A stretch of 64,000 nucleotides of DNA from Isosphaeraceae bacterium EP7 (GTDB lineage Bacteria; Planctomycetota; Planctomycetia; Isosphaerales; Isosphaeraceae), in the NCBI GenBank assembly GCA_038400315.1, contig CP151667.1:2925174-2989173 (forward strand), read 5' to 3'. This document shows, one piece after another, positions 21,361-24,461 of the stretch (positions are counted from its first letter, which is position 1; each line of letters begins with the position of its first letter). Both the position numbers and the translations under genes were made by a program. The notes under the pieces were generated by a model that had not been told where the DNA came from, did not search any database, and saw nothing but the letters and a program-made list of their open reading frames with translations.

Positions 21361-23388
21361 ATGCGTCGAATGGACGCCGGGGCCCGGCGAATGGCGGCCA
21401 GGTCGCTCGCGGGCCTGCTCGTGGCCCTCGTCCTGGCCGGGGCAGGCCCGGCCAAGACGGATAAGGACAAGAAGAAGAAAAAGGACGACACGCCCACCCT
21501 GCGTGTCGACGAGGCGGTGGGCAACCTCGCCCAGATCCGCGGCAGCGAGCTGCGCCTCGAGGGTGTCGGGCTCGTCGTCGACCTGGACAACACCGGCGCA
21601 GATCCGCCCCCGGGCGTGCTGCGGGCCAGGCTGCTCGACCAGATGAAGAAGGCCGGGGTCTCCGACTCCGACAAGATCCTGGCCAGCAAGCGGACCGCCC
21701 TGGTCCTCGTCCGGCTCATCGTCCCGCCGGGCGCCTCGCCCAAGGACCGGATCGACGCCGAGATCGAGATCCCCTCGAACACCGCCACCACAAGCCTCGC
21801 CGGCGGACGCCTGCTCACCGCCAATCTGGCGCAAGTCATGATCGCCGGCGGAGATGCGAAAGAAGGCTTCACGCTCGGCAAGGCCGGCGGCCCGGTCATG
21901 ACCGGGTCGAAGGAGAAGCCCGACGACGTCAAGAGCGGCCGCATCCTGGGCGGCGGACGCTGCTTGAAGGAAGTCCCCTACATCATGATCCTGGACGAGC
22001 GCCGCAAGAGCATCAAGACGTCCGCCTTGATCCAGGCGGTCATCAATGCCCGGTTCTTCCAGCACGAGGGGACCGACCAGAAGGGGCTGGCCAATGCGCA
22101 GAATGACCAGCAGATTAGCCTGAAGGTCCCCCTGATCTATCACCAGAACCAGGCCAGGTACTTCCGCGTCGTCAAGCTGCTGCCCTTGGTCGACACCGCC
22201 GAGCTGAGGGCCAAGCGGCTTGGGACGCTGAGCAAGGAGCTGCTCGACCCCAAGACGGCCGGAATCGCCGCCCTGAAGCTGGAAGCGATGGGGCCGCCGG
22301 GCATCGACACTCTCAAGGTCGGCCTGACCTCTCCCAACGCCCAGGTCAGGTTCTTCGCCGCGGAGGCCCTGGCCTACCTGCGTGACCCGTCCGGCGTGGA
22401 CGTCCTGGCCGAGACCGCCGTGAAGCGCAGCGAGTTCCGCTCGCAGGCCCTGGGCGCCCTGGCGGCCATGGACGACTCGGCCTCCTACATCAGGCTCCGC
22501 TCGCTGATGAACGAGGCCGACGTCGCCGTCCGCTATGGTGCCTTCGACGCCATCCGCACGGCCAGCCCGTTCGACGAGTCGCTGGGCCGGGTCCGGATCC
22601 TCCACGACCAGCCCGCCCCCTCCGACGACGACTCGATGGCCCATGCCATCTCGGGCGTGAACCCCAAACGCCCGCGTGACAACCGGCCGCCCCGCGCCGA
22701 CGATCCCTTCGCCCTCTATATGGTGGACAGCGAAGGCCCCCCCTTGGTGCACATCTCCAGCACCAAGCACGCCGAGATCGTCATCTTCGGCCAGGGCCAG
22801 AAGATGCTGACCCCGATCGTCCTTGGGGGCGGAGGCGCCATCCTCCTGAACGCGGCCGACGGCGATACCTCCGTCCAGATCAGCCGGATCGTCCCCAGCC
22901 GGGCGGGCGCCCCGGACGTGAAGATGAACTGCTCGCTGGCCATCGGCGAGATCATCCGCGAGACGGCCAACCTCGGCGCCACCTATCCGGAGCTGGTCGA
23001 GATCCTCCAATCGGCCTCGCGGCAGAAAAATCTCTCGGGCCCCCTGATCGTTGATGCGGCACCCGCCGGCGACCTCGCCTACGAGGCCGCGGCGCTGAAC
23101 GGAATCGACCCGACTCTCAAGGTCGACGACTCCCTGAAGAAGACCAAGGCCGAGCCCGAGGCCCGCCCCCGATTCCTCAGTCGGCTCTTCGGCCGCAAGG
23201 CCAAAGACGTCGCCGAGGCCGATTCCAAGGCCAAGGATAGCCCCAAGAGCGACGCCAAGACGTCGGACGGCAAGAAGCCCGACGACGGCGTCAAAGACGC
23301 CCAGAAGGACGACAAGGCCGCTCCCGGCCCACTCGAGGCCATCGACGACGCCGACCTGCCCCCGCTGCCCGAAGAGTCCAAGCCCTGA
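21361..23388 (+). CDS. FlgI-like (flagellar P-ring) protein with HEAT-like repeats
   Basis: A 675-residue exported protein. It has a signal peptide (S-L-A-G-L-L-V-A-L-V-L-A-G-A-G) and a Lys-rich linker. A domain at about residues 40-280 matches the P-ring protein FlgI: V-G-N-L-A-Q-I-R-G-S-E-L, V-G-L-V-V-D-L-D-N-T-G, then T-S-L-A-G-G-R-L-L and G-K-A-G-G-P-V. The middle (about 285-425) has helical HEAT-like repeats (V-R-F-F-A-A-E-A-L-A-Y-L-R-D-P). A beta-rich domain and a Lys/Asp-rich tail follow. No flagellar genes are in the window, so it may be a periplasmic ring or scaffold used elsewhere; that is inference. ATG 21361 was chosen because AGGAGG lies eight bases upstream; the frame is open back to 21280. 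Confidence 0.8.
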   Translation: MRRMDAGARRMAARSLAGLLVALVLAGAGPAKTDKDKKKKKDDTPTLRVDEAVGNLAQIRGSELRLEGVGLVVDLDNTGADPPPGVLRARLLDQMKKAGVSDSDKILASKRTALVLVRLIVPPGASPKDRIDAEIEIPSNTATTSLAGGRLLTANLAQVMIAGGDAKEGFTLGKAGGPVMTGSKEKPDDVKSGRILGGGRCLKEVPYIMILDERRKSIKTSALIQAVINARFFQHEGTDQKGLANAQNDQQISLKVPLIYHQNQARYFRVVKLLPLVDTAELRAKRLGTLSKELLDPKTAGIAALKLEAMGPPGIDTLKVGLTSPNAQVRFFAAEALAYLRDPSGVDVLAETAVKRSEFRSQALGALAAMDDSASYIRLRSLMNEADVAVRYGAFDAIRTASPFDESLGRVRILHDQPAPSDDDSMAHAISGVNPKRPRDNRPPRADDPFALYMVDSEGPPLVHISSTKHAEIVIFGQGQKMLTPIVLGGGGAILLNAADGDTSVQISRIVPSRAGAPDVKMNCSLAIGEIIRETANLGATYPELVEILQSASRQKNLSGPLIVDAAPAGDLAYEAAALNGIDPTLKVDDSLKKTKAEPEARPRFLSRLFGRKAKDVAEADSKAKDSPKSDAKTSDGKKPDDGVKDAQKDDKAAPGPLEAIDDADLPPLPEESKP

Positions 23389-23450: not shown

Positions 23451-23885
23451 ACGACTCGCATGCACCATCCCAGACGACCCGGCGACACCTCCCGGACCCT
23501 GAAATCGCGACGGATGTTCTCGCTGTACTTGGCCCTCCTTAAAGTCCTAAGCCGCAACGATCGAAAAATAGTCCTGTCGGTCAGGTTCGCTACGGCAAGG
23601 AGGCGGGCGAAAGCCCCCTTCGGTACTGACCCCCGACATGCCCGCACCGTCGCGTCCAGCGTCGGGGCGGGCCTCGTCACCTAACGTGCAACGCGGCACG
23701 GACCGGCCCAGGCCGGGACGCACCCCGCGACGCACCGGGCGGCGAGTATCGGCATCGGTAGCAGTGCAGGAAGACCGGGGGCCGCCCAGGCGGGCCTCGG
23801 GAACTGCTCCGATTCGGGTCGGACCATGGGGGCAGAGGAAACCTCCGAGGTCTCGCACCTTCAACGGGCGAGTGGAGTCCTCGAA

Positions 23886-24461
23886 ATGAAAAAAGTGTTC
23901 ACGACCGGCCAGGTCGCCAAGATATGCAAAGTCGCCCCACGGACGGTCAGCAAGTGGTTCGACTCGGGTCGGCTGCGCGGCTACCGCATCCCGGGGTCTC
24001 AGGATCGGCGGATCCCCCGAGAGCACCTGCTGCGCTTCCTCAAGGAGCACGGCATGCCCCTGGGGGACCTCGAAGCTGAGGTCTACCACAAGGTCCTCGT
24101 CGTCGGGGCCGACTCCCCGCTGCTGGGCACGCTCAGGGAGCACCTCCGAGAGGGGGACGACTTCCGGATCGAGACCGCCGCCTCGGGCTTCGAAGCCGGC
24201 ATCCGCGCCGAGAGCTTCCACCCCGACTGCATCATCATCGACCTGGCCGTCGGCCGGATCGAAGCCGGGCAGATCGCGCAGAACCTGCGCAAAAGCCCGG
24301 ATCATATCACCACCATCCTCGTCGCCCTCACCAGCGACGAGCCCGGCGAAGAGCTCTACGGCCTCGGATTCAACGACGCCTTCAAGAAGCCCTTCGACGG
24401 TGCCCTGCTCGCCGAGCGCGTCCGTCGCCTCATCTCGCAGAAGAAGGCCGACGAGCCTTGA
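23886..24461 (+). CDS. MerR-like helix-turn-helix/receiver-domain regulator
   Basis: A 191-residue protein. Residues 1-60 form an excisionase/BldC-type helix-turn-helix: F-T-T-G-Q-V-A-K-I-C-K-V-A-P-R-T-V-S-K-W-F, then R-I-P-R-E-H-L. Residues about 72-185 form a response-regulator receiver: V-L-V-V-G-A-D, the phospho-acceptor Asp of C-I-I-I-D-L, the Thr of V-A-L-T-S, and the Lys of F-K-K-P-F. The acidic pair before the first loop is reduced to one Asp (G-A-D), so phosphorylation may be weak. DNA-binding N-terminal to the receiver is the reverse of the usual order. No histidine kinase is nearby. ATG 23886 begins the conserved part, with a GGAG upstream. Confidence 0.85.
   Translation: MKKVFTTGQVAKICKVAPRTVSKWFDSGRLRGYRIPGSQDRRIPREHLLRFLKEHGMPLGDLEAEVYHKVLVVGADSPLLGTLREHLREGDDFRIETAASGFEAGIRAESFHPDCIIIDLAVGRIEAGQIAQNLRKSPDHITTILVALTSDEPGEELYGLGFNDAFKKPFDGALLAERVRRLISQKKADEP

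Follow-up and report, generated by a model that had tools for sequence, protein, structure and literature searches.

The P ring, in which 26 subunits surround the rod, is regarded as a flagellar structure. Its subunit FlgI (PF02119; PDB 7bgl, 7cbl, 7nvg and 8z5n) consists of three domains, with the outer-ring domain formed by residues 1-11 and 160-230 and the lower inner-ring domain by residues 231-346 of the mature protein, and its Lys-63 and Lys-95 contact the rod and not the neighbouring subunits (from the part of PMC8298488 drawn upon here). The L-ring protein FlgH (PF02107) is a lipoprotein and, according to the same part of that paper, also an envelope-ring protein. A literature search that covered few subscription journals and no preprints returned, among the matches listed, no study of a FlgI paralogue in planctomycetes, of its linkage to smc or of the loss of SMC in Isosphaeraceae. 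P-ring genes are noted in a planctomycete genome in one section of PMC1586193, a section that does not mention the protein family described below, and the portions of the main text of the Planctopirus essential-gene paper used here (PMC10632474) mention neither SMC nor flagella.

The locus studied here lies in a window of 64,000 nucleotides from the planctomycete Isosphaeraceae bacterium EP7 (contig CP151667.1). A forward-strand gene at 21361..23388 encodes a protein of 675 residues followed by a stop codon; a second possible start, GTG, lies 81 bases upstream. We refer to this product as P0001 and to its family as FlgI-HEAT. The order of its parts is a hydrophobic N-terminus, a Lys-rich linker, a FlgI match, a HEAT_2 match, a region without Pfam matches and a charged tail. 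Both Pfam matches exceed their cut-offs: PF02119 scores 58.3 bits (cut-off 25.3, E 7.8e-16) over residues 55-274, and HEAT_2 scores 35.4 bits (cut-off 27.7, E 1.4e-8) over residues 316-398. A phmmer search of the PDB matched Salmonella FlgI at E 1.4e-4 and also placed residues 517-553 faintly on FlgI 317-353, a match that is not significant alone. Profile-profile alignment with hhalign against 15 planctomycete flagellar FlgIs covered residues 53-283 (probability 99.7, E 2.6e-25). P0001 is a member of the FlgI superfamily (PF02119), and the FlgI-like domain pointed out in an earlier sequence-only reading of this DNA is borne out by these three kinds of match.

The AlphaFold2 model of P0001, built from 60 sequences (the window and loci of the genome_contigs scan), has a mean pLDDT of 85.7 and a pTM of 0.80. 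When it was compared with the PDB by Foldseek, FlgI chains of flagellar basal bodies took the first four places (E 2.0e-10 to 2.2e-9, alignments of 527-529 columns). VIA-align 2 superimposed residues 51-280 on FlgI 20-248 for four FlgI entries (Z 15.3-16.0, 197-202 residues aligned) at an rmsd of 8.6-9.0, a large value that probably reflects a shifted domain. These residues (21511..22200, forward strand), also covered by the Pfam and hhalign matches, represent the outer-ring and upper inner-ring domains. The VIA-align rows beneath the FlgI entries are HEAT proteins, which align from about residue 281 onward, where a HEAT-repeat block of residues 281-402 begins (22201..22566, forward strand; eight helices at 280-401 in the model; HEAT_2 match and structural rows of HEAT and alphaRep proteins). 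Modelled alone, the piece 436-583 reached a pLDDT of 88.2, and four FlgI chains made up the top four VIA-align rows, with residues 458-565 (22732..23055, forward strand) on FlgI 247/248-363/365 (rmsd 2.9-3.1, 76-81 residues aligned). We assign this segment to the lower inner-ring, C-terminal domain of FlgI; its Z of 6.3-7.0 is below 8 and not strong by itself, and the Foldseek matches of the lone piece to FlgI are weak (E 0.04-0.4, ranks 1, 4 and 5). The three-domain FlgI fold is thus firm for the outer and upper inner ring and weaker for the lower inner ring.

The first FlgI match ends at FlgI residues 246-248 in the three Salmonella chains, or 244 in 8z5n, and the second begins at 247/248. 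Because FlgI residue 248 both closes the first match and opens the second, the HEAT block is an insertion at that point. Residue 248 corresponds to mature residue 229, using a 19-residue offset read from the phmmer alignment, so that the insertion falls where the outer-ring domain meets the lower inner-ring domain. A C-terminal fusion of the HEAT repeats is therefore rejected on the Foldseek alignments and the VIA-align matches of both FlgI parts. The sequence-only reading was right about the presence of HEAT-like repeats but not about their position, which it had placed after the P-ring domain; they interrupt the FlgI fold. It also described a charged tail, which is present at residues 611-675 (23191..23385, forward strand) and is probably disordered, with pLDDT below 50 at 611-629 and 631-675. 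Compared with FlgI, P0001 has the same fold with three domains in the same order, and it differs in the HEAT block at the outer-ring/lower inner-ring border and in the tail. Compared with HEAT-repeat proteins such as alphaRep, deoxyhypusine hydroxylase and phycobilin lyases, residues ~281-402 share the repeat sequence and the helical fold, but in P0001 the repeats are inserted in another fold within an apparently exported protein.

An export signal without a lipobox cysteine is predicted at approximately residues 1-28 (21361..21444, forward strand), where the model has a helix at 6-26. The window protein is the exception in alignment A1, in which 15 of 16 sequences carry a lipobox cysteine. 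In the named collection, 33 loci are 45-54% identical to P0001 and are called Isosphaeraceae-type on that ground (their titles vary); the 47 others are 34-40% identical. A lipobox-like site, searched with a loose pattern, occurred in 40 of the 47 loci outside Isosphaeraceae versus one of the 33 Isosphaeraceae-type loci. FlgI-HEAT proteins outside Isosphaeraceae are thus usually predicted lipoproteins, which distinguishes them from FlgI and makes most of them resemble FlgH; no sequence or fold relation to FlgH was found, and FlgH is absent from the source genome. Many of these members (among loci L122-L168) share RSQSPE or RSQSPD just behind the lipid-anchor cysteine. Three loci labelled Schlesneria (L142, L154 and L164) have no lipobox and an RR-containing, Tat-like start (SRRLWLQ or SRRTWLQ). 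To judge from such N-termini, the export route may vary within the family.

The source genome (7.2 Mb, 99.9% complete) contains no second FlgI, the product of 21361..23388 being its sole FlgI match, and neither FlgH nor any rod or hook protein was matched in it. In the window, the 19 ORFs scanned with Pfam include no flagellar genes, in agreement with the sequence-only reading. That reading had proposed checking the genome for FlgH and a separate FlgI, and had allowed that a full flagellar set without another FlgI would make this the ordinary P-ring protein; the genome holds no flagellar set. Of the genome context that P-ring function involves, the L ring, rod and hook are missing, and FlhA alone is present (C1:6913284, ~3.9 Mb from the FlgI-HEAT gene). 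Beside this lone FlhA (L033:16718-19906, L032) lie genes for an SRP54-type GTPase and a sigma-70 factor. By position and sequence the GTPase is FlhF-like, and the cluster of the three genes is a remnant. Rod or hook matches were found in one of 45 Isosphaeraceae genomes (G201, 85% complete) and were lacking in the other 44. These 45 genomes are taken to be Isosphaeraceae because in two of them, G224 and G207, the gene has the coordinates that it has in Singulisphaera acidiphila DSM 18658 and Singulisphaera sp. GP187. Flagellated relatives encode a canonical FlgI as well as the long form. Outside the class, one genome assembled as a single contig (G127, 99% complete) has the long form and no matches to FlhA, FlgH or another FlgI. 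P0001 also scores far below the NCBIfam FlgI models, reaching 50.1 bits where PRK05303 requires 300 and 21.5 bits where a second model requires 557. P0001 is not a flagellar P-ring protein, and the suggestion that a P-ring-type protein is used here outside the flagellum is well supported by the missing flagellar set and by the relatives in other genomes.

The two rod-contacting sites were mapped by eye from the phmmer alignment and the numbering in PMC8298488. At the positions of Salmonella FlgI Lys-63 and Lys-95, P0001 has Lys and Thr, respectively. Lysine occupies these sites in 15 and 10 of the 60 sequences of the FlgI-HEAT family alignment (A3); among 15 canonical FlgIs of planctomycetes the counts are 9 and 7. 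The two sites are therefore not decisive for or against a flagellar P-ring function. Since the two lysines touch the rod and not the neighbouring subunits, their loss says little on ring formation.

A relative of P0001 was found in 77 of the 79 genomes searched, its own included, and in all 59 of those that are of good quality. The two misses, G205 (74% complete) and G236 (64% complete), belong to the Isosphaeraceae, where 43 of 45 genomes were positive. FlgI-HEAT is near-universal in the class and core to it. Of 199 genomes drawn evenly from the phylum, 25 matched alignment A1 at E <1e-80, including all 12 of the class (again with the source genome). Nearly all other drawn genomes gave weaker matches, to canonical FlgIs or to unrelated HEAT proteins; FlgI-HEAT fragments may be among them (G031, G075 and G093). 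The genome_contigs scan returned 352 relatives, and among the best 80 of these the titles are planctomycete except for two plain 'bacterium' entries (L111 and L136). A tree of 48 proteins groups FlgI-HEAT in a single clade (support 98/99) and sets it off from the 15 flagellar FlgIs (91/90); within FlgI-HEAT, a clade of Planctomycetia (99/98) stands beside one of all remaining members (96/93). By this branching, FlgI-HEAT is one old planctomycete family with a vertical pattern. FlgI-like proteins without HEAT repeats have very long branches, and their position in the tree is unsure.

When the ORFs flanking long FlgI-like genes were compared all against all (18 loci and the window), a single neighbour recurred across classes: in 14 of the 18 loci the next gene downstream, in the same orientation, encodes a protein of 1,187-1,340 residues. 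The remaining loci are L042, L045 and the two members of a different group, L035 and L036. This downstream protein is SMC: Pfam SMC_N and hinge matches were obtained in the three proteins scanned, and the one scanned with the NCBIfam SMC equivalog scored 913.9 bits (cut-off 567.35). Within the class but outside Isosphaeraceae, SMC is present in all 34 genomes and lies directly downstream of FlgI-HEAT in 31 of them, with 95-514 bases separating the two matches; this adjacency is missing in G167, G253 and G251, in the last possibly owing to a contig break. Outside the class, 21 loci had room downstream and smc follows in 18 of them (7/8 and a further 11/13), four further loci without such room having been left out. 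The three loci lacking an adjacent smc are G111, G086 and G068, and in G068 SMC is encoded 2.9 kb farther along. Among the 18 paired loci, L178 (in G151) has masked bases in its FlgI-like ORF. In the named collection, SMC is encoded downstream in 40 of the 47 loci outside Isosphaeraceae, with a median gap of 108.5 bases (0-373 bases in 39 loci and 1142 in one); two of the other seven have less than 500 bases of room. These sets overlap in organisms, and their counts are not additive.

Five of the 18 paired loci outside the class come from deep-branching genomes (G022, G047, G136, G033 and G001) whose FlgI-like protein has no HEAT match. They share with the family of P0001 the Pfam FlgI match (E 1.1e-11 to 3.1e-5, three of the five above cut-off) and the smc gene directly downstream. 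The pairing of a FlgI-like gene with smc thus seems to date from early in the phylum and the HEAT block to have been gained later, an order of events that we infer. The gaps to smc leave room for a separate promoter, and the pairing may be inherited gene order.

A different picture emerged for the family of the source organism. Full-length SMC and ScpA were each found in none of the 45 Isosphaeraceae genomes versus all 34 genomes elsewhere in the class. Short SMC matches of at most 108 residues in five Isosphaeraceae genomes are at chance level (E 6e-5 to 7e-4), and in the source genome, where SMC is lacking, the best SMC_N match is RecN. Isosphaeraceae (the source genome and 44 others, G000 and G199-G242) therefore appear to be without the SMC-ScpA condensin. 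DUF4194, which we take to be MksE/JetB and which served as the marker of an alternative condensin, was detected in none of the 45 Isosphaeraceae genomes and in 5 of the 34 others, and a condensin of the MksE/JetB type in Isosphaeraceae is rejected on this count. In the named collection none of the 33 Isosphaeraceae-type loci has smc beside FlgI-HEAT. Instead, a gene with Pfam HTH_17 and response-regulator domains (23826..24461, forward strand, in the window; the HTH is excisionase/BldC-like) directly follows FlgI-HEAT in all 24 of these loci that offer 1.2 kb of room or more. Elsewhere in the phylum, in other families, the regulator gene is found on the far side of smc (L040, L049, L125, L131, L134, L149, L162, L163 and L168). 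The window thus shows the old order with smc removed between 23388 and 23826. Kept beside FlgI-HEAT or beyond smc across families, the gene is possibly a regulator of the FlgI-HEAT/smc pair. As Isosphaeraceae keep FlgI-HEAT in the absence of both SMC and ScpA, the link to smc is not essential, and a strict dependence of FlgI-HEAT on SMC is rejected. What defines the FlgI-HEAT family is the HEAT block within the FlgI fold, which P0001 has; a downstream smc and a lipobox cysteine, both lacking in P0001 and its locus, are common in the family without defining it.

We propose, with about as much credence as doubt, that FlgI-HEAT is a P-ring-like envelope protein independent of the flagellum, probably an annulus with a structural role in growth or division and not in motility. 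The protein would be exported, in most lineages as a lipoprotein that probably reaches the outer membrane and in the source organism as a putatively soluble periplasmic protein. Its FlgI domains, packed next to one another, would form an annulus within or close to the peptidoglycan, held to a membrane, probably the outer one, by the lipid anchor where this is present. The HEAT block, entering beside the lower-ring domain, could dock or recruit a partner. The result would be a structural ring, placed at the bud or at contact sites of the envelope, that acts in growth or division. The usual place of the gene directly before smc suggests that the protein is made together with the growth and chromosome-segregation programme, and its persistence where SMC was lost indicates that SMC is not needed. 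The ring, its location and the division role are all inferred.

This proposal competes most closely with the view that the smc linkage is conserved gene order of no functional meaning and that the protein is unrelated to chromosomes or division, to which we assign somewhat less than an even chance. FlgI-HEAT does persist in Isosphaeraceae devoid of SMC and ScpA, and gaps of about 100 bases permit separate promoters; the pair is nevertheless kept across several classes, including most loci with room outside the class, and no other neighbour in the 18 loci and the window is conserved in this way. HEAT blocks are protein-binding scaffolds, and the protein could instead be an adaptor of the periplasm or outer membrane that forms no ring, its FlgI fold staying a monomer or small oligomer and its repeats binding a partner. 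The scarcity of lysine at the rod-contacting sites of the family fits such an adaptor, but canonical planctomycete FlgIs also have lysine there only in part, the residues concerned face the rod according to the cited part of PMC8298488, and the family as a whole retains all three FlgI domains, the one lining the inner ring of FlgI among them. We consider the adaptor unlikely, though a serious contender.

Crateriform pits offer another setting. The part of PMC5394234 drawn upon here describes them as 'press stud-like' connections between the outer and cytoplasmic membranes, ~104 per cell, and calls them enigmatic. A P-ring-like annulus could form the collar of these complexes, which pin the outer to the inner membrane, as would suit a ring protein of the wall whose gene is near-universal in the class; the smc linkage, however, does not point to pits and the family also occurs outside the class, and we regard a pit component as improbable. 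An ordinary flagellar P-ring protein enlarged by HEAT repeats is the least credible reading, with a very small chance of being right. P0001 is the only FlgI-family protein of its genome, and FlhA, the FlhF-like GTPase and a sigma factor remain there, but the genome has no FlgH, rod and hook are absent from it and from 44 of the 45 family genomes, flagellated relatives carry a separate canonical FlgI, and the score for PRK05303 falls far under the cut-off. A flagellar P ring is thus rejected.

A relative of the P ring that is near-universal in a class, outlasts the flagellum, has an internal HEAT block and is usually encoded beside a condensin gene would represent a new use of the ring fold, and its genomic context would surprise specialists. 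The adjacency to smc in most lineages hints at an undescribed cell-envelope structure. Planctomycete cells divide without FtsZ, as stated in the part of PMC12283558 used here, and FlgI-HEAT is a candidate gene for envelope and chromosome organisation in such cells, as well as for the make-up of the crateriform envelope complexes termed enigmatic in PMC5394234. The broadest version, that Planctomycetota assemble an undescribed envelope annulus, independent of the flagellum, from a P-ring-like lipoprotein whose pairing with smc arose early in the phylum, and that this annulus is perhaps the core of crateriform pits or a landmark for budding and segregation, is speculative and on the whole rather doubtful.

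A third kind of long FlgI-like protein was observed in L035 (G181) and L036 (G048). These two have a different long N-terminal half and no adjacent smc, and they pair in the tree with a support of 100/100.
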